Below are positions 12,189-64,000 of a stretch of 64,000 nucleotides of DNA, in pieces. This stretch comes from Lachnospiraceae bacterium (GTDB lineage: Bacteria; Bacillota; Clostridia; Lachnospirales; Lachnospiraceae), in NCBI GenBank assembly GCA_024690825.1, contig JAILOK010000056.1, positions 186,001-250,000 on the forward strand, written 5' to 3'. The notes beneath the pieces were generated by a model. It had not been told where the DNA came from. It worked only from the letters and a program-made list of their open reading frames with translations, and searched no databases. Position numbers and translations under genes: made by a program. Within the stretch, counting starts at the first letter, position 1; each line of letters begins with the position of its first letter.

Positions 12189-12761
12189 ATGCAGTTATTA
12201 AAAGACAGGATCCTCTCCGAGGGAAGGGCTTTGAATGATGACATTCTCAAGGTGGACAGTTTTATCAACCACCAGGTGGATACAAACCTCATGCAGGAGA
12301 TAGCGCGAGATTTTGCCGCGCATTTTGCGGATATGGGGATCACCAAAGTCGTGACAATAGAAAGCTCGGGCATAGCCCCTGCCGTATTTACAGCTCACGA
12401 GATGGGCGTCCCGATGGTCATATTAAAGAAACAGCCGTCGAAGGTTTTAAACGAGGATCTTTATCATACCATGATCACTTCCTATACGAAGGGAACCAAT
12501 TACGAACTTACGCTTTCTTCAAAGTTTGTGAATGAAAATGATCATGTGCTGATCATAGATGACTTCCTTGCCAACGGCGAGGCGGCTACAGGCGCGATAA
12601 GGCTTCTGCGCATGGCACACGCGACGGTTGCCGGAGTCGGAATACTCATAGAAAAATCCTTCCAGCCCGGTCATGACAAGCTTGAAAAGGCCGGTATCCA
12701 TGTATACAGTCTGGCAAGGATAGCATCACTTGAAAAAGACGGTATTGAATTTCTTGAATAA
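12189..12761 (+). CDS. xpt: Xanthine phosphoribosyltransferase
   Basis: 190 residues. It converts xanthine and PRPP to XMP in purine salvage. The PRPP-binding loop is [17 protein letters not shown] (about residue 120), and the PurR/Xpt-type N-terminus [20 protein letters not shown] is typical. I chose ATG 12189 because AAAAGGAG (12176-12183) gives good spacing; a GTG at 12183 overlaps the ribosome site and is unlikely. No purine riboswitch fits in the 62-base gap upstream, unlike xpt of Bacillus. Confidence 0.93.
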
Positions 12762-12780
12762 AGAAGTTTATGAATATAAT
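12754..12780 (+). promoter_or_regulatory. Weak promoter candidate before aspartate kinase
   Basis: A perfect -10 TATAAT (12775-12780) has TTGAAT (12754-12759) only 15 bases upstream, a short spacer. It lies 20 bases before the ATG. Confidence 0.3.
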
Positions 12781-12800
12781 CATCATATGAGGAGTTTATT

Positions 12801-14120
12801 ATGAAAAAAGTCGTGAAGTTCGGCGGAAGTTCGCTTGCAAGCGCCGAACAGTTCAAGAAGGTCCGGGCGGTGATCGATGCGGACAGTGACAGAAGGTATG
12901 TTGTTGTTTCCGCTCCCGGAAAGAGAAATGCAAAAGACAGGAAAGTCACCGATATGCTCTATGACTGCTACGCAGCAGCGGAAGCGGGCGAGGACTTCAT
13001 CAAGGCATTAAGAGACATAAGGGACCGTTTCCAGAAGATCATAGACGGCCTGCATCTGAAAACAGATCTGACCGATGAGTTCAGGATCATAGAGGAAAAC
13101 TTTAAGGCGAAGGCAGGAAGTGATTATGCGGCTTCAAGAGGAGAATTTCTTAACGGCATCATAATGGCCGATTACCTCGGAACAGCTTTTATTGATTCCG
13201 CAAAGGTCATATTTTTTGATGAAAACGGCGAGTTTGATCATGAAAAAACAAACGACGCGCTTTCCGCAGCTCTTAAAGATGTTGAAAGAGCAGTGATCCC
13301 CGGATTTTACGGCTCGACAAAGGACGGTAAGGTAAAGACTTTTTCCAGAGGCGGTTCCGATATAACGGGTTCGATAGTGGCAAGAGCCGTAAAGGCAGAT
13401 GTGTATGAAAACTGGACTGATGTTTCAGGGTGTCTTGTCGCGGATCCCCATATAATAAAGGATCCCGAGGTAATAGATATCATCACATACAAGGAACTTC
13501 GGGAGCTTTCATATATGGGGGCATCGGTCCTGCATGAAAACGCCATCTTTCCGGTGCGTATAGAGGGCATCCCGATCAATATCAGAAATACGAACGCACC
13601 TGAGGAAAAGGGCACATGGATCGTACAGAGCACCGGACAGAGAGCAAAGTTTACCATCACCGGCATAGCAGGCAAGAGGGGCTTCTGTTCGGTTAACATT
13701 GAAAAGGACAAGATGAACACGGAGGTTGGTTTCGGCCGGAGAGTTCTGCAGGCATTTGAGGATAACGACATATCCTTTGAACATATGCCTTCGGGTATTG
13801 ATACAATGACGATCCTTGTACATCAGGATGAATTCATGAACAAGGAGCAGAATGTTGTGTCACAGATAAACCGCACGACTCATCCTGACAGCATAGAGAT
13901 CGAATCCGATCTGGCGCTTATAGCAGTCGTTGGCAGGAGTATGAAGTCTTCGCGGGGCGTGGCAGGAAGGATCTTTTCCGCTCTGGCGCATGCGAATGTG
14001 AATGTCAAGATGATAGATCAGGGTTCATCGGAGCTGAACATAATCATAGGTGTTACAAATGATGATTTTGAAACAGCTATCAGGGCTATATATGATATTT
14101 TCGTTATCACCGAGATCTGA
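12801..14120 (+). CDS. lysC: Aspartate kinase
   Basis: 439 residues. It phosphorylates aspartate, the first step to lysine, threonine, methionine and diaminopimelate. The N-terminal kinase motif is KFGGSSLASAEQFKKV, with RGGSDITGSIVARAVKADVYENWTDV-type substrate-binding sequence near residue 185 (quoted only in part by family: RGGSDITGS). Two C-terminal ACT domains (about 305-435) are the sites of feedback control in the family. The length matches monofunctional class III-like enzymes with no internal beta start. AGGAG precedes ATG 12801. Which amino acid inhibits it cannot be read from sequence. Confidence 0.92.
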   Translation: MKKVVKFGGSSLASAEQFKKVRAVIDADSDRRYVVVSAPGKRNAKDRKVTDMLYDCYAAAEAGEDFIKALRDIRDRFQKIIDGLHLKTDLTDEFRIIEENFKAKAGSDYAASRGEFLNGIIMADYLGTAFIDSAKVIFFDENGEFDHEKTNDALSAALKDVERAVIPGFYGSTKDGKVKTFSRGGSDITGSIVARAVKADVYENWTDVSGCLVADPHIIKDPEVIDIITYKELRELSYMGASVLHENAIFPVRIEGIPINIRNTNAPEEKGTWIVQSTGQRAKFTITGIAGKRGFCSVNIEKDKMNTEVGFGRRVLQAFEDNDISFEHMPSGIDTMTILVHQDEFMNKEQNVVSQINRTTHPDSIEIESDLALIAVVGRSMKSSRGVAGRIFSALAHANVNVKMIDQGSSELNIIIGVTNDDFETAIRAIYDIFVITEI

Positions 14121-54128: not shown

Positions 54129-55172
54129 TTAATCCTGGCTTAAGTTTCTGACAGCCTCAATGGAGGCTTCCGTACTTGTTACATAGTGCATGGTGCTTGA
54201 GATGGAAGAGTGGCCCATGAGTTTCTGGACCTTTTCGACATCGCCGGTCTTTATAAGCATCGTTTCGGCAAAGGTTGTGCGCAGTTTATGAGGAGTGATC
54301 CTTTCGGCCTTGTCCGGTACGCACCCATACATATATTTTTTTACGAGCTTCTCGACAGATCTGACGCTGATGCGTTCTCCCGATCTGTTTAAGAAGACAG
54401 CCGTTTCGTTTTTATCGGGTTTATATAATCCCCTGCCGTTTTCAATGTAATCGGAAAGGATCATTTCGGCATTGTCCGACATGTAAACGGTATCGAAATT
54501 ACCACCCTTGCGATGGACATTTATACCGTGTTTTGAGAAATTAATATCATTTAAGTTCATGCCCACAAGCTCGGATACACGGATGCCGGTATCAAGAAAG
54601 ATGGTACATATGGCGGCGTCCCGCTTTGAAGCTTTGATGTCGTGGAATTTCAGCTGGTTTTTTGTCAGTCCGTCGCCGGTCGATACGGTATTGATGAGAT
54701 CCTGCTTTTCTTCGTGTTCGAGATAGACTATCTCTTTCTTTTTGACCCGGCCGCGTTTTATCATTTCAACAGGATTGGTGTTTATGTATCCGTGAGCTGT
54801 CAGGTATGAAAACAGACGGTTCAGGCTTACCATATAGTGCATAATGGTGGTCTCGCTGCAGACCGAAAGACCCTTATTGCTCTTTCTTTCCTTAGGCATC
54901 CGAAGATCGTGTAGGAATTCGGCTATATCCTCATCGGTAAGCTCTGCCATATCATCCACAGATATTTCTTTTATTCCTTTCCTTGCAAAGCACGGATTGT
55001 TTTCGATCAGAAAATCAAAAAAGGTTTTCAGCTGGCTTGCATAGGAGTATAAAGTCATGCCGGAGAGGTGATTTTCCTCAGACATGAAAAAACTCCGCAC
55101 AAACCGCGGCATTTCTTTATTTATTGCTTCAGCCCTGAACCGGGCTTCGTTTTCTTTTTCTTCCTTGTACAC
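54129..55172 (-). CDS. Tyrosine recombinase, XerS/XerD-like
   Basis: 347 residues. An N-terminal SAM-like DNA-binding domain with TLYSYASQLKTFFDFLIENN is followed by the catalytic domain. Visible catalytic residues: Arg in DTGIRVSELVG, HKLR in ITPHKLRTTFAETML, His in LMGHSSISSTMHYVT and the nucleophilic Tyr in the same segment. The length and the N-terminus (MPRFVRSFFMSEE) resemble the single-recombinase XerS of streptococci more than XerC or XerD, which are about 300 residues. Start is GTG 55172 with CAGGATAAG upstream. It stands alone with no phage or integron genes, which favours a chromosome dimer-resolution role. That role is inference. Confidence 0.82.
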   Translation of the reverse strand: MYKEEKENEARFRAEAINKEMPRFVRSFFMSEENHLSGMTLYSYASQLKTFFDFLIENNPCFARKGIKEISVDDMAELTDEDIAEFLHDLRMPKERKSNKGLSVCSETTIMHYMVSLNRLFSYLTAHGYINTNPVEMIKRGRVKKKEIVYLEHEEKQDLINTVSTGDGLTKNQLKFHDIKASKRDAAICTIFLDTGIRVSELVGMNLNDINFSKHGINVHRKGGNFDTVYMSDNAEMILSDYIENGRGLYKPDKNETAVFLNRSGERISVRSVEKLVKKYMYGCVPDKAERITPHKLRTTFAETMLIKTGDVEKVQKLMGHSSISSTMHYVTSTEASIEAVRNLSQD

Positions 55173-55349: not shown

Positions 55350-57896
55350 ATGATGACAGACGAAAAACAAACCAATGAACTTCACGGTATCGTTAATATG
55401 GCGCTTGTCATCACCATCATACTGTTTTCAGTGGTAATCGTGATCTTAAACCTCGCGCTTGGGTGGGAGAGATGGACGATCCCCATCTGTCTTTGTACCA
55501 TTCCGGTAAGTCTTATCATGCATATCAGAAACAGACCCGAAGAGAGTGTCAGGATCCACATATATGCGGCGATCCTTCTGCTGGAAATGTTTTATTACTG
55601 TGCAAATGTGGACAAAATATACGATGCTTCGCCGGTGATAGTGCTTCTGTTATTCCTGATGGCCATGACTCAGGAAAAAGTACTGAACTGGCTTTGTCTC
55701 ATCACGGGATATGCAGGCATGACGCTTCATATTCTTATCGCAAAGGAGACGGGAAACCTGCCAGGCCGGTTTTCAAACATTGTCCGTACGGTATGGGTAT
55801 TTGTCATAGTATTTATCGCTTTCATCGTCGCGAACTGGCTTGCGGATATTTTAGTGCACAGCCGGAGGGATTATTCCGAAAGGATATCGGAACTGGAGGA
55901 GGTCAACAAAAGCGCGGGAGACTTTCTTGCCAATGTATCTCATGAAATAAGGACTCCGATAAACGCCGTAATGGGCATCACGGATATATGCATGGAAAAG
56001 GAATCCGATCCGGAAATAAAAAAGGATATGAAACTGGTGGCCGAGGCCGGCCGCAGGGTTTCCATGCAGATCAGCGATATACTGGATTATTCCGAAGTCG
56101 ACATGAAAAAACTGGCTGTTAATTCCGAAGATTACATGCTTTCTTCCGTGCTGCACGATCTCGTGTCGCAGATCAAAATCATAAAACCCAGAGAACTGGA
56201 ACTGGTCATCGATGTGGATCCCGGGATCCCTTCAGTGATGCGCACGGATGTCGGCAAACTTAAAAAGATCCTCTGGCATCTGATCATAAACGGATTGAAA
56301 TATACGAAAGAGGGCGGTGTGTATGTTCACATATATCCGCTTAAAGAAGAATACGGGATCAATCTGTGCATAGAGGTGGCAGATACCGGTATCGGAATGA
56401 ATGATGAACAGCTGGAGCGCGTAACCGAGCGGTTTTATCAGGCAAATTCCGGAAGATCGAGGTCGAGCAACGGACTTGGCCTTGGAATGCCGATAGTTTC
56501 CGGTTTCGTCTCATCGCTGAAAGGATTCATGACGATGAAGTCCGTGCCTGAATGTGGGACAAAAGTCAGCATCTCCATTCCGCAAAAGGTCATTTCCGCA
56601 GAAGAGTGCATGTCGGTAGCTGACAGGGAAAGGCTTTGTCTTGGAGCGTTTCTGCATTTTGAAAAATTCCCGAACCCGGATGTCAGAGATTTTTACAACG
56701 CAATGCTCAAAGACCTCGTCTCCGGACTGAAGGTGCAGATGCACAAGGTGGAGACCGTTGAGAACCTGAAGAAACTTAACAGCAACATCAAACTGACTCA
56801 TCTGTTTGTGGGGCTGGAGGAATATCTGTCAGATGTTTCCTACATGGAAGAACTCACAAAAAAGATGGTAGTCGTGGTTGTCGCGGAAGAGGATTTTACC
56901 CCCGGTGACGGTTCGGGGGTCATTGTCATGACAAAGCCGTTTTACTGTTTTCCTGTCATCAGCATCCTGAATATGGACTTAAACGATCTGCATCCCGCCG
57001 AAGAAAAAATGCTGTGTGAGGGAGTCAGAGCTCTTGTCGTGGATGATGAGCCCATGAATCTCAATGTGGCCACGGGAATCTTTAAGCGTTACGGAATGGT
57101 TGTTCAGACCGCTTCTTCCGGCGCCGAAGCATTAAAGCTGTGTGAAGATAATAAATACGATATCATTTTCATGGATCATATGATGCCGGGAATGGACGGT
57201 GTGGAAGCCATGAAAAAGATCCGGAGCGGTTCGGGTGTCAGCTGCGGTGATATTCCCATAGTTGCGCTGACAGCAAATGCAGTCAGTTCCGCAAGACAGA
57301 TGTTTATGAGGGAAGGATTTGACGGCTTTGTAAGCAAGCCGGTGGAGATGATCGAACTGGAGAGGGTCTTAAAGGCAGTCCTGCCAAAGAATATGGTCCG
57401 TATGGTCGCTGTCACAAAAGACGAACCTTCCGACGGACCAAAAAAAGAGCAGGAACAGACAAGGGATGCCGGCAAAGATTACCCTGTCCTGGTTAAATAC
57501 GGCGTTGATATAAAAACAGGTCTGCACTATAGTCAGGATGATGAGGACCTTTACAGGGAACTTCTCAGGGAATACGCGGCCGGCTATGATGAAAAAAAGA
57601 ATGATTCGGAAAAGTATCTTGATATGTCAGATCTTAAAAATTACGGGATCATCGTGCATGCGCTGAAGAGTACATCAAAGATGATAGGCGCAATGTCTTT
57701 GTCGGATGATGCAAAAGCCTTAGAGGAGGCTGCCGGAAAAGATGATGCGGGATATATCAGACAGAATCACGAACATGTTTTTGAAAGTTACAGGAACCTT
57801 ACGGATGCGATCCGCGAATGCCTGTCAGATGAAAGCGGATCTTCGGAAAGTGATGATGACGGAGATATTCTGGAATTTCTGCCTGATGCGGATTAA
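55350..57896 (+). CDS. Hybrid histidine kinase with pseudoreceiver, receiver and HPt domain
   Basis: 848 residues. Six membrane segments (about 16-170) with almost no extracytoplasmic domain, then HisKA with His198 in FLANVSHEIRTPINAV, HATPase with ADTGIGMND and GLGLGMPIVSG (about 230-405), a receiver-like segment (about 425-560) without a phospho-acceptor Asp, a true receiver (about 565-690; VVDDEPMNL, Asp609 in FMDHMMPGMDGVEAM, SKPVEMIELE), and a C-terminal HPt domain with His770 in IIVHALKSTSKMIG. All parts of a His-Asp-His relay are present. AAGGAG lies 2 bases before ATG 55350 and 5 before ATG 55353, so the second Met may be the start. The signal is unknown; output must pass to another receiver. 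Confidence 0.92.
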   Translation: MMTDEKQTNELHGIVNMALVITIILFSVVIVILNLALGWERWTIPICLCTIPVSLIMHIRNRPEESVRIHIYAAILLLEMFYYCANVDKIYDASPVIVLLLFLMAMTQEKVLNWLCLITGYAGMTLHILIAKETGNLPGRFSNIVRTVWVFVIVFIAFIVANWLADILVHSRRDYSERISELEEVNKSAGDFLANVSHEIRTPINAVMGITDICMEKESDPEIKKDMKLVAEAGRRVSMQISDILDYSEVDMKKLAVNSEDYMLSSVLHDLVSQIKIIKPRELELVIDVDPGIPSVMRTDVGKLKKILWHLIINGLKYTKEGGVYVHIYPLKEEYGINLCIEVADTGIGMNDEQLERVTERFYQANSGRSRSSNGLGLGMPIVSGFVSSLKGFMTMKSVPECGTKVSISIPQKVISAEECMSVADRERLCLGAFLHFEKFPNPDVRDFYNAMLKDLVSGLKVQMHKVETVENLKKLNSNIKLTHLFVGLEEYLSDVSYMEELTKKMVVVVVAEEDFTPGDGSGVIVMTKPFYCFPVISILNMDLNDLHPAEEKMLCEGVRALVVDDEPMNLNVATGIFKRYGMVVQTASSGAEALKLCEDNKYDIIFMDHMMPGMDGVEAMKKIRSGSGVSCGDIPIVALTANAVSSARQMFMREGFDGFVSKPVEMIELERVLKAVLPKNMVRMVAVTKDEPSDGPKKEQEQTRDAGKDYPVLVKYGVDIKTGLHYSQDDEDLYRELLREYAAGYDEKKNDSEKYLDMSDLKNYGIIVHALKSTSKMIGAMSLSDDAKALEEAAGKDDAGYIRQNHEHVFESYRNLTDAIRECLSDESGSSESDDDGDILEFLPDAD

Positions 57897-57910: not shown

Positions 57911-60064
57911 ATGAATCTGAAAAGATTATTTGGCGGCGGTGAAGAAGAGGCTTTAAGGGAACATCAAAAAGAGATAGAAGAACTGTATGCTGCCCGGAAC
58001 AGTTTTTTTTCAAACTTAAGCCATGAGATACGTACGCCCATCAATACGATCATCGGCATGAATGAGATGAATCTGAGGGAGGACGTATCCGATGAAGTGA
58101 GAGAAAATTCGCTCTGCATAGAGTCTGCCGGAAAGATGCTTCTTCATCTTGTGAATGATATCCTTGACATGTCAAAGATCGAGTCGGGACAGATGAAACT
58201 TTTACCGGCGGAATACCAGACCGGCCGCATGCTCTCTGATATAGTCAACATGTTCTGGAAGACGGCAAAAGATAAAAATCTGGAGTTTTCCGTTGCGGTT
58301 GCCGATGATCTGCCATCCGCGCTTATCGGGGATGAGGTCAGGATAAAACAGATATTGATCAATATCCTGAATAATGCGGTCAAATATACGGATTCCGGGT
58401 CTGTTACCCTTTCGATAAGGGCAAGACGGGATGGAGAAGGAAATGCCGTGATGTCCTATACCGTAAGTGATACGGGTATAGGAATAAAAAAAGAAAACCT
58501 GCCATATCTGTTTACCGCATTTAGCCGGATGGATGAGGAAAAAACAAAGAATATCGAGGGTACGGGATTAGGACTTTCCATCGTAAAAAGCCTTGTGGAC
58601 ATGATGGGCGGAAAGATCACAGTAAACAGTGTTTATACCAAGGGAACCACATTTGTGATCGAGATACCGCAGCGTGTGGCAGATGATGCGTATTTAGGCG
58701 AGGTAGACCTTGAGATGCGCAGCAGGAATATACACAGATCCGATTATCATCAGTCATTCGAGGCTCCTGACGCCAATGTACTGATCGTGGATGATACACC
58801 CGAAAACATGCTTGCAGCCGAAAAACTGCTCAGAGCAACGAAGGTGAATGTTTTCTGTGCAGCCAACGGCAGGGAAGCCCTTGCCATGACACTTGAAAAG
58901 CACTTTCATGTGATATTCATGGATCATTTCATGCCCGATATGGACGGAATAGAGTGCGCCCGTAAGATACGTAACCAGACCGGGGGATTTTGCAGGGATT
59001 CAAAGATAGTAGCGCTGACCGTAAACGCCGGAAATGAGGCTGCCGCCCTGTATATGAGGGAGGGCTTTGACGGATATATCGAAAAACCGGTAACCGGGAT
59101 CAGGCTTGAAAGAGAACTCAGGAGAAATCTTCCGCATGATCTTCTGAAGATAACAGGATCTTCGGATGAAATCCTTGAAGACAGCATGTCCTGGATCAAA
59201 GATCATGAAAAAAAGAGCATGACGGTCGTCACGACAGAAAGTGTCGCGGATCTGCCGGATGCCCTGATCGCAAAATTCGGCATACTGGTGATACCGCACA
59301 TGGTAAGAACACCTGACGGAGTGTTCAGAGACGGAAACGAGATAGATCAGAACGGTGTTCTGTCATATATGGCAGATGAAAATGCGGTAGTTCTGACAGA
59401 GGTTCCGGATGTCGAGATGCACGAGGTTTTTTTTGCAGATGCGCTCAAGCATGCCGATAATGTTGTGCATATATCGGTTTCGGGAAAGGTGGCGCACAGC
59501 GGATATCATGCCGCAATGGAAGCGTCAAAGGCTTTTGATAATGTTACTGTCGTTGATTCCGGACATTTATCAAGCGGGCAGGGCCTTTTGGTGCTTTCTG
59601 CATGCAAAATGGCTTTAGAGGGAGCCGGGCCGTCAGAGATCGCGGAAAATCTTGAAAAGATGAGAGATCATATCAATACGGGTTTTATCGTGGACGGTCT
59701 TGAATACATGGCAAGGAACAGACAGGTCAGTTACAGAGTAGCAGCCATAACAAGGGCATTTATGATACGGCCGGTACTTGTGCTTAAAAAGGGAATCATC
59801 GGAGTCGGAGGAGTGTTTTTGGGCTCCAGGGAAACGGCATGGAAAAGATATATCAATTCCACATTAAAAAATCCCGAATCAATTGACAGGACCATACTTT
59901 TAGTGACATATGTCGGACTGAACCAGAACGACATTGAAAAGATCAGGAAAATGGTAGAAAAAAGAATGAAATTCGAAGAAATATTCTTTCAAAAGGCTTC
60001 GCCTTCGGTCGCGGTCAATTGCGGCCCGGGTACATTCGGACTTCTGTTTGCGAGAAAGGATTGA
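57911..60064 (+). CDS. Soluble hybrid histidine kinase fused to a DegV (fatty-acid-binding family) domain
   Basis: 717 residues, no membrane segment. A short coiled-coil start (about 10-30), HisKA with His38 in FFSNLSHEIRTPINTI, HATPase (about 130-265; SDTGIGIKK, GTGLGLSIVKSL), receiver (about 290-410; VLIVDDTPENM, Asp338 in FMDHFMPDMDGIEC, EKPVTGIRLE), then from about 436 to the end a DegV-family domain: VTTESVADLPDALIAKFGI, VVDSGHLSSGQGLLVLSACK, FIVDGLEYMARNRQVSYR, and terminal NCGPGTFGLLFA. DegV/FakB proteins bind a fatty acid and, with FakA, present it for phosphorylation. Here the His of the usual HxGPG motif is Asn. The likely role is a lipid-responsive cytoplasmic kinase; this is inference. 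AAGAGGG precedes the ATG. Confidence 0.88.
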   Translation: MNLKRLFGGGEEEALREHQKEIEELYAARNSFFSNLSHEIRTPINTIIGMNEMNLREDVSDEVRENSLCIESAGKMLLHLVNDILDMSKIESGQMKLLPAEYQTGRMLSDIVNMFWKTAKDKNLEFSVAVADDLPSALIGDEVRIKQILINILNNAVKYTDSGSVTLSIRARRDGEGNAVMSYTVSDTGIGIKKENLPYLFTAFSRMDEEKTKNIEGTGLGLSIVKSLVDMMGGKITVNSVYTKGTTFVIEIPQRVADDAYLGEVDLEMRSRNIHRSDYHQSFEAPDANVLIVDDTPENMLAAEKLLRATKVNVFCAANGREALAMTLEKHFHVIFMDHFMPDMDGIECARKIRNQTGGFCRDSKIVALTVNAGNEAAALYMREGFDGYIEKPVTGIRLERELRRNLPHDLLKITGSSDEILEDSMSWIKDHEKKSMTVVTTESVADLPDALIAKFGILVIPHMVRTPDGVFRDGNEIDQNGVLSYMADENAVVLTEVPDVEMHEVFFADALKHADNVVHISVSGKVAHSGYHAAMEASKAFDNVTVVDSGHLSSGQGLLVLSACKMALEGAGPSEIAENLEKMRDHINTGFIVDGLEYMARNRQVSYRVAAITRAFMIRPVLVLKKGIIGVGGVFLGSRETAWKRYINSTLKNPESIDRTILLVTYVGLNQNDIEKIRKMVEKRMKFEEIFFQKASPSVAVNCGPGTFGLLFARKD

Positions 60065-60072
60065 TCGGACCT

Positions 60073-63000
60073 ATGAATGAGATCATATTGGAGATATCGG
60101 CGCTGGGAATAGGCATATTCTGTCTGGTTGAATGCCTGCATACCAGGAAGGATGTCTTTCTGGCCGAAAAAAAAGAATGGATTGAAAAACTGAAGGACAG
60201 ACATTTCGTCTATTTTATCCTGCTGGTCCTTCTCATAGTTTCATCTTTCTTTTCGGTGCTTGAGGTGTGCGTAGAGCATTATGCTCCGATCAGAAGTGCC
60301 TTTATGCTAGACTTCTGTAATTACATGTATTTTATATTCCACACCGTTCTGGGATATGTATTCATTCTTTATATCATCAATCTTACAGGTGCATTCAGAA
60401 GGAGAGGAAAGGTTTTTTATTTCGTCTTTTCGATCCCGATAATACTGGCGGAGACCTTCATACTGTTAAATCCCTTCACGGGACTTGCCTATTTTATCGA
60501 TGAAAACTGTACATATAACCGCGGACCGCATATATGGGTGGTCTACGCTGTCGGCTTTTTCTATGTGATCGCAGGCATCATAGTTTTTATGACGAACATG
60601 AAGCTTATACCCAAGCTTGACCGTTCGGCTGTGTTTATACTTGTTTTCATCACGATTCTCGGCATCTGTATCCAGGGCCTTTTCTCCATAATGGTTGAGC
60701 TTTTCTTTGAATCTGTCGGTATGTTCGGTTTTCTCCTCCTTTTGGAGAACAGGCGCACGGACAGGAGGCAGGGCAGACACAGGAAGATGAACAGAAGGTA
60801 TATCCTGGTCATAGCGTTTCTTTTTCTTTCCGTCGTCACAATGAATATCAATCTCATTTATTATGCCGGAATGGAACAGGCCGGAAAGATAAGCGAGATA
60901 CAGATGAACAGCCTGAAGGGCGAGCTGCAGCAGACACTGTCGGATTCGGAGGGGTATCTCTTAAAGTATGCCATGGGGCTTGAGCAGCTTATAACCGAAT
61001 CTGCGGATATGGATGAGCTTGAAAGATATATTACGGAACAGAACGATTATTATTCGGGATTAAGATCAGCAAACTGCATCAGCGCCTATGCAGCATCTCC
61101 GGAATGGCTCATCAACCCGGGCTTTGATCTTCCGGAGGATTTTGATCCCACGGAAAGGATCTGGTATCTCGGCGCGAAGGAGCACCCGGGAGAGATCTGC
61201 ATTTCCGAACCATACATTGACATGAATACGGGAGAACTCTGCTATACCTTTTCATATCTTCTTTCTGACAGAAAAACAGTCGCGGGCATGGATTATTCTC
61301 TTACAAAGGTTCAGGATGTCGTGAAGAAGATGGCGGGCAAAAAGGATCAGTTTTCAATTATAGTTACTGATTCGGGCACCATAGTAGGATGTTCCCTGGA
61401 TGTAAATCAGGGAAAAGAACTGAGTGAAGTCATGCCTTCATATACAGACGCTTTTGAAAGGGTAAAGGCGTCAAGTGAGCATAAGAGCTTTAAGACCAAC
61501 ATAGGCGGAAACAAAAAGATCGTTTTCGGGAGCAATACGAGCAACGGCTGGCTGCTCATCCTTGTGGTTGATTACGGATCCTTCTATCAGGATATATTTG
61601 AGCGGATGATAATGGTCGGCGCCGTGGATATCCTGATGGTGACGGTCATCATAGTTTTTTATCTGGTAAGCGTCATAAATCAGGAGAAAGCCGAAAATAC
61701 TCTTGAAAATACGGAAGACTTTATCGCTTCTCTTTCCGGGGAACTCAGCGCTCCGCTTGGAGAGATATTGAGGATCAGCGAGGCTGAGACCGGTCAGGGT
61801 GCGGCATCTGAGGCGATGATGGGGATCAATATCGCCGGAAAAAAGTTAAAGGACAGGATCAACGATCTCTTTGCCTATTCCAATATCCTGAAGACGGATA
61901 CATCATCCGACGCTAAGAAACTGAAGAAAAAAAAGGCCGTGAAGACGGACATGAGCAGGCTTATCAGAAACGGCATTCTGGTGATCATCGGTACGGCAAT
62001 GATCATCGGGCTTGCGATGTGCGTTGCCATGACTGTGAGATGGGGAAAAGCAAGGATAACAAATCAGGCGGACAGATTCGGGAGCGATGTCGCTTTATGG
62101 ATGGAACAGAAGAAGAGCATGCTGATGATGTTCTCTGATGTGATCGCGGCTGATCCGTCGGTACTCGATGATTATGACTCTGCCGTAAAATGGCTGGATG
62201 ATATATCCAGAAACTACAGCGAGATCACCTTTGCCTATATGGCCAATCCTCATAATAAGGAACATCCTGTCATAATGAACAACGGCTGGGTGCCCGATGC
62301 CGATTATAAAGTGGAGGAAAGACAGTGGTATATAGATACAAAACATGCCAAAGGAGGCTTCAATATTTCAGCTCCGTATTTTGATGCGCAGACCGGATTA
62401 TACTGCATTACCTTTTCAAGAGTCGTATATTCAACGGAAGGGAAATTTCTGGGTGTATTTGCGATAGACTGTCTTATGGACAAGCTGATCGATGTGCTGG
62501 ATAACAGTTATACCGATGGAAACTACGCATTCATGGTAGATCAGGACGGAACTATCATAAACCATCCCAACAAAGAATATGAGATCAGTCCGCAGAATTC
62601 GGTCAATATAGAGGATACGGAGTATGCAGATGCCTATCACAGGGGAAGCACCTTTGAAATGCATGATTATGACGGAAAGCGGGTGTCCTGTTATACGGAA
62701 AACAGTCTGTTGTCAGGTTTTACCGTGGTGGTCGTACAGGACTGGTGGAGTATATACGGACCGCTGTTTATAGTCAGCGTGGTGTTCTTTTTGATGATCG
62801 TGGTATCGATTGCCTCCGTGATCATAATGATCAACCGGTTTACGGGATGGCAGGAAGAAACAAATGCCAGACTCGTTGAAGCGGCAGAGTCTGCCGTTGC
62901 CGCAAAGAAGGCAAAGTCAAGATTCCTTGCCCAGATGTCTCACGAGATCAGGACACCGATCAATGCGGTCCTCGGCATGAATGAGATGATCTTAAGGGAA

Positions 63001-64000
63001 TCCGGGGACGGATCCATAAGAGAGTACGCGGGAAATATAAGGGCGTCCGGAAAGAACCTGCTGGGACTCATTAATTCCATACTCGACTTTTCAAAAATAG
63101 AGGAAGGAAAAATGGAGATCATACCGGTCAGGTATGATACTTCGGTGATGATAGAAAATATAATCAATTCCGTATCAAAGAGGGCAAAAGACAAAGGGAT
63201 TGTCTTTGAGACGCATATAGACAGCAATCTGCCGTCCACTCTTTACGGTGACGATATGAGGATCACCCAGGTGGTTGTCAATCTGCTTACAAATGCCATC
63301 AAATATACCAGAGAAGGCAGAGTCGATCTTTATATGGAAGGCTTAAGAAATGACACTGATACGGTAAGCTTAAGGGTCAGCGTGAATGACACCGGCATAG
63401 GTATAAAAGAGGAGGATATCGGAAGACTCTTTGAATCCTTTACCAGACTTGAAGAAACCAAAAACAGGAGCATAGAAGGAACAGGACTTGGAATGGCCAT
63501 AGTGAACGGACTCCTTGAAATGATGGACTCTTCCTTAAATGTTGAAAGTGTTTACGGCAAGGGCTCCAGGTTCTCCTTTGAGGTATCACAGAAGATAATC
63601 GATGACTCACCGATAGGTGATTATGAAGCAAAAGCAAGGCAGATCCTTGAAAAGGATGATGAAGAAAGATACCTGTATGCTCCCGAAGCAAAGCTTCTCG
63701 TAGTGGATGATATCGAGATGAACATCAAGGTGATCTCAAATCTCCTTAAGCTGAACGGCATCATCCCGGATACGGCAAATTCCGGAAAGGAAACTCTTGA
63801 AAAGCTTAAAACCGGGAATTATGATGTGGTGCTTTTGGATCATATGATGCCTGAGATGGACGGAATAGAGACATTGCAGGCGGCAAAGGATGAAGGACTC
63901 ATTCCCGAAGGCTGCACGGTGATCGCGCTGACAGCCAATGCCGTATCGGGTGCCAGGGAAATCTATCTTAAGGCCGGATTTGAGGATTATCTGACAAAGC
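60073..64000 (+). CDS. Giant hybrid histidine kinase with tandem sensor units (3' truncated by window)
   Basis: Open without stop from ATG 60073 to the window end, at least 1,309 residues. Order: seven hydrophobic segments resembling a 7TM input module (about 3-225); membrane helix (about 243-262); Cache-type extracytoplasmic domain (about 263-510); helix (about 512-536); a degenerate HisKA-like segment (about 549-605) with Gly556 where His is expected, FIASLSGELSAPLGEIL, and no ATPase; helix (about 635-655); a second Cache-type domain (about 660-890; RQWYIDTKHAKGGFNIS); helix (about 897-920); functional HisKA with His957 in FLAQMSHEIRTPINAV; HATPase (NLLTNAIKYT, NDTGIGI, GTGLGMAIV); and a receiver with Asp1256 in LLDHMMPEMDGIE, cut at its KP motif. 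More domains may follow. The start lies 8 bases after the previous kinase; GGACC is only a weak ribosome site. Confidence 0.9.
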   Translation, partial: MNEIILEISALGIGIFCLVECLHTRKDVFLAEKKEWIEKLKDRHFVYFILLVLLIVSSFFSVLEVCVEHYAPIRSAFMLDFCNYMYFIFHTVLGYVFILYIINLTGAFRRRGKVFYFVFSIPIILAETFILLNPFTGLAYFIDENCTYNRGPHIWVVYAVGFFYVIAGIIVFMTNMKLIPKLDRSAVFILVFITILGICIQGLFSIMVELFFESVGMFGFLLLLENRRTDRRQGRHRKMNRRYILVIAFLFLSVVTMNINLIYYAGMEQAGKISEIQMNSLKGELQQTLSDSEGYLLKYAMGLEQLITESADMDELERYITEQNDYYSGLRSANCISAYAASPEWLINPGFDLPEDFDPTERIWYLGAKEHPGEICISEPYIDMNTGELCYTFSYLLSDRKTVAGMDYSLTKVQDVVKKMAGKKDQFSIIVTDSGTIVGCSLDVNQGKELSEVMPSYTDAFERVKASSEHKSFKTNIGGNKKIVFGSNTSNGWLLILVVDYGSFYQDIFERMIMVGAVDILMVTVIIVFYLVSVINQEKAENTLENTEDFIASLSGELSAPLGEILRISEAETGQGAASEAMMGINIAGKKLKDRINDLFAYSNILKTDTSSDAKKLKKKKAVKTDMSRLIRNGILVIIGTAMIIGLAMCVAMTVRWGKARITNQADRFGSDVALWMEQKKSMLMMFSDVIAADPSVLDDYDSAVKWLDDISRNYSEITFAYMANPHNKEHPVIMNNGWVPDADYKVEERQWYIDTKHAKGGFNISAPYFDAQTGLYCITFSRVVYSTEGKFLGVFAIDCLMDKLIDVLDNSYTDGNYAFMVDQDGTIINHPNKEYEISPQNSVNIEDTEYADAYHRGSTFEMHDYDGKRVSCYTENSLLSGFTVVVVQDWWSIYGPLFIVSVVFFLMIVVSIASVIIMINRFTGWQEETNARLVEAAESAVAAKKAKSRFLAQMSHEIRTPINAVLGMNEMILRESGDGSIREYAGNIRASGKNLLGLINSILDFSKIEEGKMEIIPVRYDTSVMIENIINSVSKRAKDKGIVFETHIDSNLPSTLYGDDMRITQVVVNLLTNAIKYTREGRVDLYMEGLRNDTDTVSLRVSVNDTGIGIKEEDIGRLFESFTRLEETKNRSIEGTGLGMAIVNGLLEMMDSSLNVESVYGKGSRFSFEVSQKIIDDSPIGDYEAKARQILEKDDEERYLYAPEAKLLVVDDIEMNIKVISNLLKLNGIIPDTANSGKETLEKLKTGNYDVVLLDHMMPEMDGIETLQAAKDEGLIPEGCTVIALTANAVSGAREIYLKAGFEDYLTK

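Follow-up and report, generated by a model that had tools for sequence, protein, structure and literature searches.

A DegV domain fused to a hybrid histidine kinase in a Lachnospiraceae bacterium: a candidate FakB-derived ligand sensor within a two-kinase phosphorelay

FakB proteins are carriers that hand fatty acids to a kinase, and DegV domains of their kind mostly stand alone in the genomes searched, as the initial annotation of this locus had assumed. A complete DegV domain placed behind the receiver of a histidine kinase raises the question of what such a domain does in a signalling protein and whether it is still a carrier. The gene lies in a window of 64,000 nucleotides from a Lachnospiraceae bacterium (assembly GCA_024690825.1, contig JAILOK010000056.1, positions 186,001 to 250,000), where nucleotides 57911-60064 of the forward strand form one stop-free frame that translates into 717 amino acids. 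The initial annotation had read HisKA, HATPase, receiver and a full-length DegV domain in this single frame, and the Pfam search bears this out, all four matches exceeding the curated cut-offs. The protein and its parts are the following:

57911..60064, + strand: HisKA-HATPase_c-receiver-DegV fusion protein, 717 aa, without a membrane part (frame and Pfam; no hydrophobic segment ahead of HisKA in a simple hydropathy count)
57992..58189, + strand: HisKA, residues 28-93, with the phospho-acceptor His38 (Pfam E 9.3e-18; His38 invariant in 88/88 fusions)
58328..58672, + strand: HATPase_c, residues 140-254 (Pfam E 2.7e-29; Asn155 and Asp187 invariant in 88/88)
58778..59113, + strand: receiver (Response_reg), residues 290-401, with Asp338 (Pfam E 7.9e-21; Asp294, Asp295, Asp338, Thr370 and Lys392 invariant in 88/88)
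59114..59224, + strand: linker between receiver and DegV, residues 402-438, of near-constant length across fusions (span measured in 88 fusions)
59225..60055, + strand: DegV domain of the fusion type, residues 439-715 (Pfam E 2.8e-39, NCBIfam and PDB sequence matches)

The histidine and the aspartate of the phosphorelay had been correctly located as His38 and Asp338. Invariance was counted over the 88 fusion genes of at least 680 aa with their start in view, and alignment columns were used since a strict motif count of the kinase boxes proved too narrow (all five motifs in 60/88). With the HisKA histidine, the ATP-binding boxes and the receiver aspartate in one chain, the protein is a hybrid histidine kinase. 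The distance from receiver Lys392 to the column of residue 450 is 56-58 residues in 84 of the 88 fusions, within a range of 55-61. The DegV part covers profile positions 3-279 of the 280 in PF02645 (135.6 bits against a cut-off of 27) and also matches the NCBIfam model TIGR00762 (151.1 bits, cut-off 99.7), which places it in the DegV family over its full length. When residues 434-717 were compared with the PDB, 20 distinct sequences were retrieved, annotated as DegV, FakB, fatty-acid-binding or uncharacterised, with 2dt8 as the best (9.7e-25). A profile built from 17 fusion DegV domains gave 25 PDB matches, including 4x9x (4.1e-32), the Staphylococcus aureus DegV-domain protein MW1315, which we take to be FakB2. 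Single-sequence structure predictions (mean pLDDT 36 and 40) were too poor for a comparison of pocket or fold.

Could the fusion be an artefact of sequencing or assembly in which a degV gene and a kinase gene were joined? The source genome (2.95 Mb, 99% complete) contains eight DegV domains, two of them in frames of ordinary size, about 300 aa, and the other six in long frames that span 725 to 1149 aa according to a genome-wide frame listing (the window product itself has 717 aa). Besides the window gene there are thus five paralogues that share its order of HisKA, HATPase_c, receiver and DegV, and a C-terminal Hpt domain is added in three of them; in pairwise comparison of five of the six copies the DegV parts are only 31-49% identical. 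Within the genus, fusion-type matches at E<=1e-60 are present in 36 of 48 genomes (14 of the 22 of high quality) and absent at this threshold from the other 12, eight of which belong to the high-quality set. These matches number 86, six of them from the source genome itself, and they include two short frames (G015:C233, G018:C322) and three partial matches (G023:C149, G018:C21, G012:C18). An error as the source of the fusion is refuted by the six in-genome copies and the congeners, as well as by three genomes from another order of the class that carry the fusion too. Nothing was found in support of a merging error, which can be regarded as practically impossible; what is seen at a few draft-genome loci is a split frame. 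At these loci (L120, L136 and L166 in G018, G008 and G052) the fusion gene appears as two adjoining frames, with the DegV or the membrane part apart, which is either a real split or a sequencing error.

In a sample of the order (295 genomes, with up to eight candidates scored in each) at least 11 genomes carry the fusion type in frames of more than 700 aa, namely the source genome, nine more of the family and one of another family, and in a sample of the class (391 genomes) it was detected in the aforementioned three genomes, which belong to one genus (E about 1e-119). The same gene pair, described below, is present in one of these three (L176), and the presence of the fusion in another order may be due to transfer. 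In the phylum sample (398 genomes) no fusion was found outside the family at E<=1e-60 among the best-scoring candidates, at most six per genome. A plasmid collection gave 15 records matching the DegV part, all below 60% identity, and no annotated feature names a kinase there (two records are unannotated and several matches have no listed feature); among viral contigs no relative of the fusion was found. A 580-aa frame with a DegV domain in G375, considered as a second kind of fusion, was rejected on inspection by eye as a stand-alone DegV with a spurious upstream frame. One further family of the order has DegV matches in frames of 596-604 aa (G208:C1:4779172, G147:C1:2805026, G060:C111:91735), which may be another fusion or a stand-alone domain behind a spurious upstream frame.

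In a tree of 155 DegV domains one branch (SH-aLRT 100) separates the 95 fusion rows from the 60 stand-alone rows, with one change of state; the tree was built by a quick method, with SH-aLRT support but without bootstrap, and four long-branched rows, two of them fusions, are unsurely placed. This is consistent with the fusion-type DegV domains being one group of single origin. As regards selection, dN/dS of the DegV part is 0.07-0.16 in 11 of the 14 fusion-gene pairs computed (those with unsaturated dS) and that of the kinase part 0.02-0.09 in 12 unsaturated pairs. The 14 pairs come from 22 disjoint ones and stand for relatives of the window gene, which has no relative close enough for such a calculation. 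The DegV part evolves faster than the kinase part in each of the 14 pairs, and the ratios indicate that in the related pairs tested the domain is under purifying selection and is not decaying.

What is conserved in the domain differs from what is conserved in FakB. In 2016 Broussard and colleagues are said to have assigned to Thr61, Ser93, Arg170, Arg202 and His266 of FakB2 roles in carboxylate binding, FakA activity and FakA binding, Arg202 reportedly being needed for binding of FakA and Arg170 for activity with it. These residues were placed in the window protein by alignment to 4x9x (an offset of 20 fits all five letters) and by conserved columns:

59396..59398, + strand: Thr496, at the place of FakB2 Thr61, kept
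59495..59497, + strand: His529, at the place of Ser93, changed; the column lies beside a gap and is the least certain
59723..59725, + strand: Gln605, at the place of Arg170, changed; Arg in 91/91 stand-alone proteins
59819..59821, + strand: Leu637, at the place of Arg202, changed; Arg or Lys in 91/91 stand-alone proteins
60017..60019, + strand: Asn703, at the place of His266; Asn in 80/92 fusions, and one stand-alone subgroup also lacks His

With Thr, His, Gln, Leu and Asn at the five places, the window protein keeps one of them and falls outside the FakB kinase-substrate subgroup that the five residues mark. The GPGxxG end seen in the initial annotation is present, but the histidine that stands two residues ahead of it in typical DegV proteins is Asn703 here. 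The same erosion is seen throughout the 92 fusions that could be compared (96 fusion-type rows minus the split, cut or partial L120, L153, L156 and L157; L169 counts as stand-alone, and the partial match G023:C149 lies outside the fetched loci and these counts): 28 keep none of the five residues, 42 keep one and 22 keep two, which is the maximum. The 51 best-scoring stand-alone proteins among the loci, a choice that leans towards typical DegV, retain all five in 47 cases and four in the other 4; as a counterweight 40 more, mostly lower-scoring, were picked by hand, and of these 11 keep five, 10 keep four and 19 keep three. The rows are interrelated, so that none of these counts is independent.

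The two arginines separate the groups completely, also after the addition of the 40 rows. All 91 stand-alone proteins have Arg at the place of Arg170, and all have Arg or, in two cases, Lys at that of Arg202, whereas both arginines are kept in 0/92 fusions. Among fusions the Arg170 column contains Gln (30), Arg (21), Leu (21), Lys (9) and others, and the Arg202 column is mostly hydrophobic, with Arg in a single protein. The His266 column is occupied by Asn in 80, Thr in 5, Ser in 3, His in 2 and Val and Leu in one each, and 62 of the 92 retain a residue with a hydroxyl in the Thr61 column. Since Ser replaces Thr61 and Tyr replaces His266 in 19 of the 40 added stand-alone proteins, most of them from the same genus, changes at these two places are not special to the fusions and say little when taken alone. 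The Ser/Tyr subgroup includes L188-L203, L205, L206, L208 and similar rows. Among the stand-alone relatives examined, the closest ones (L179, L181-L187) have all five residues, as do the source genome's own two. In view of these positions, it is unlikely that the fusion DegV domain serves as a FakA substrate.

The fusion gene is accompanied by a second kinase gene, which, like the five paralogues, goes beyond the initial annotation:

55350..57896, + strand: partner, a membrane hybrid kinase with hydrophobic N-terminus, HisKA-HATPase_c-receiver-Hpt, 848 aa, ending 14 nt ahead of the fusion gene (Pfam)
57561..57746, + strand: Hpt of the partner, residues 738-799, with His770 (Pfam Hpt E 1.8e-4, 22.1 bits, just under the curated cut-off of 24.6)

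A recognisable upstream neighbour is found in 88 fusions, eight of the 96 fusion rows being left out; one of the 88 (L136) has as its neighbour the split-off front of the fusion itself. It lies on the same strand at a gap of -50 to 175 nt, with an overlap of exactly 4 nt in 45 cases. In the 76 partners of at least 600 aa the HisKA histidine is present in 71 and the receiver aspartate in 72, and the column of His770 contains His in 46, a gap in 29 and Arg in one. The position of the Hpt domain follows a rule: by motif, 32 pairs have it only in the fusion and 50 only in the partner, no pair has it in both genes, and six have it in neither. Three of these six (L147, L148, L164) have a partner Hpt detectable by BLAST, L152 has an Hpt match one gene downstream, L136 is the split gene and L160 has a partner fragment. 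There is at most one Hpt per gene pair across the 88 loci. The shift of Hpt between the two genes is one change on the DegV tree and should therefore be read as one natural experiment, not as 82. Distances between partners correlate with those between DegV domains (r 0.91 over 75 pairs, a value reached in 0 of 1000 permutations), but the nearest neighbours of partner and fusion agree in only 38 of the 75 pairs.

By a simple hydropathy count, 85 of the 89 fusions with their start in view have 4-7 hydrophobic segments ahead of HisKA. Four differ: the window protein has none, L136 and L166, both with split frames, have none either, and L146 has two. On this count most of the family are membrane proteins, among which the window copy is a soluble form; being without a membrane part, the window copy should be cytoplasmic and dependent on its membrane partner.

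The genes around the pair give some indication of the output. Next upstream of the pair (88 loci, by BLAST) an HD-GYP gene is found in 13 cases, a GGDEF gene in 6 and another gene on the same strand in 47, the remaining 22 being out of view or on the other strand. In the source genome two of the other five pairs (L040, L041) directly follow a REC-HD-GYP gene, against a whole-genome background of 22 HD_5 and 24 GGDEF matches in 2.95 Mb. At the window locus no REC-HD-GYP gene is adjacent, and the nearest HD_5 matches begin some 11 kb and 15 kb downstream of the fusion. Judging from gene order, part of the fusion family is likely to be linked to cyclic-di-GMP; as 47 of the 88 upstream genes are neither HD-GYP nor GGDEF, such an output is not general. 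Several fusions are followed by a gene for a protein some 250 aa long that ends in a receiver and has an N-terminal part matching nothing in Pfam. The gene lies directly downstream in 7 of 88 cases (L043 8792-9547; in L042 one gene further on, 12367-13131; also L161, L099 and others), and its product is a candidate output regulator of the module.

What function, then, does the DegV domain perform? The adjoining kinase and the altered carrier residues suggest that a lipid carrier has been turned into a sensor, and the best reading of the locus, on which we would place an even bet, is a FakB-derived ligand sensor within a two-kinase phosphorelay. The fusion protein would be one half of this relay. 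We infer the binding of a ligand by the DegV domain, the nature of this ligand and the direction of control alike. Phosphate would move among the two HisKA histidines, the two receiver aspartates and the one Hpt that the two genes share, before passing to a separate response regulator as the presumed output, at some loci probably a REC-HD-GYP phosphodiesterase or a diguanylate cyclase. A regulatory, ligand-sensing role is preferred over fatty-acid delivery because kinase and receiver are intact, because the DegV domain is conserved without the arginines related to FakA, and because the genome encodes a YloV/FakA-type kinase separately (its match to the FakA equivalog model is below the cut-off) together with two intact stand-alone DegV proteins. 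It is plausible that the fusion DegV domain senses a ligand, be it a fatty acid or something else. A fatty acid is still a candidate, considering the hydroxyl frequently retained at the Thr61 place and the Asn that could substitute for His266 in hydrogen bonding.

The initial annotation had suggested that the binding of a fatty acid or acyl phosphate controls, or is controlled by, phosphorylation of the receiver. In one form of this idea acyl-phosphate chemistry would be coupled to the receiver: the domain would be a working FakB serving FakA, and phosphorylation would gate the delivery of its fatty acid to FakA. On the one hand, the full-length DegV domain occupies a C-terminal, output-like position after the receiver, and a YloV/FakA-type kinase is available in the same genome. 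On the other hand, Arg is found at the Arg202 place in 1, Arg at the Arg170 place in 21 and His at the His266 place in 2 of the 92 fusions, the two FakA-related arginines are never kept together, and the genome has its own two stand-alone DegV proteins with all five residues. This proposal is therefore weakened, and we consider it highly improbable. That the domain senses something other than a fatty acid, e.g. another carboxylate or an amphipathic signal, is less far-fetched but still rather unlikely: the residues that reportedly hold the fatty-acid carboxylate in FakB2 are largely changed, a new set is conserved in the fusions (Asn703 in 80/92), and the divergence among the DegV parts of the five compared in-genome copies suggests different signals, but the solved relatives found are of DegV/FakB type or uncharacterised, and the hydroxyl at the Thr61 place persists in two thirds of the fusions (62/92). 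The domain might also bind nothing and act as a scaffold for the pairing with the partner kinase or for dimer geometry, which would agree with the lost ligand-site residues, the near-constant spacing to the receiver and the co-evolution with the partner; however, a DegV part that changes faster than the kinase part in 14/14 pairs and is nevertheless under purifying selection fits ligand specificity at least as well, and we regard a scaffold as unlikely.

A broader proposal builds on the preferred reading of a ligand-sensing phosphorelay, and it is a tentative one that we would not expect to hold in full. It supposes an intracellular lipid-sensing phosphorelay family in which one captured FakB gene was disarmed as a kinase substrate and spread into six copies with their own partner kinases, which would respond to several different fatty acids or acyl signals by adjusting cyclic-di-GMP or gene expression, as a Gram-positive answer to RpfC/RpfG. 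RpfG is an HD-GYP regulator, and the resemblance is a functional analogy only, in that a REC-HD-GYP gene adjoins some fusion loci, though not the window locus. In PMC5391125, RpfC is presented as a membrane hybrid kinase with a fatty acid (DSF) as its allosteric activator, bound via an N-terminal sensor region of 22 residues. The fusion has a DegV domain instead of such an N-terminal region, and no homology between the two sensors is claimed. In another comparable system, SaeRS, we know of no DegV domain in the SaeS kinase. The activity of this Staphylococcus two-component system depends on the Fak system, according to PMC5539427. It is likewise a two-component system tied to Fak, but kinase and Fak are separate proteins there.

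Compared with the families that its parts resemble, the fusion is distinct in both halves. The domain is the same full-length one as in the FakB/DegV family (PF02645, TIGR00762; subunits of fatty acid kinase) by profile and PDB matches, but here it is fused to a hybrid kinase and has at most two of the five FakB residues left. The kinase half shares the HisKA-HATPase_c-receiver order and residues with hybrid kinases of the TorS/BarA/LuxQ type, which give the best NCBIfam matches, all far below the equivalog cut-offs; it differs from them in the DegV domain after the receiver and in the single Hpt, at most, that is shared between two adjoining kinases. The initial annotation knew of no described system of this kind, and the partial literature coverage available (titles, the starts of abstracts, and the DegV passages of PMC3146951 and PMC12288450) likewise contains no paper on a fusion of DegV with a histidine kinase or receiver. 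PMC12288450 presents a similarity network of DegV domains, and its main text uses neither the word fusion nor the word histidine. Domain databases may show the architecture even if no paper describes it.

A known carrier domain appears here to be recast as a signalling part, with a residue-level signature of the change in role. If fatty acids are bound, the fusion offers a ready domain for asking how such bacteria sense free fatty acids, and this would explain why six divergent copies are kept in one genome. With purified proteins the sensor idea can be tested directly, starting from the residue signature and from the limit of one Hpt per pair.

Other signalling and mobile genes are found close to the pair, one of them directly behind the fusion:

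60073..63999, + strand: third hybrid kinase, equipped with Cache sensor domains, cut by the window's edge and continuing in L047; it adjoins the fusion gene and may or may not belong to the module

In this third kinase two Cache-matching stretches are present in one chain, apparently separated by a HisKA-like stretch that lacks the usual histidine (by eye). In L176, from the other order, the product of the gene upstream of the pair (nucleotides 21-1622) looks like a receiver, a GGDEF part and a second receiver in one chain (by eye). Just upstream of the two-kinase pair in the window, a tyrosine recombinase gene (Pfam Phage_integrase) is located on the opposite strand at 54129-55172 (-).
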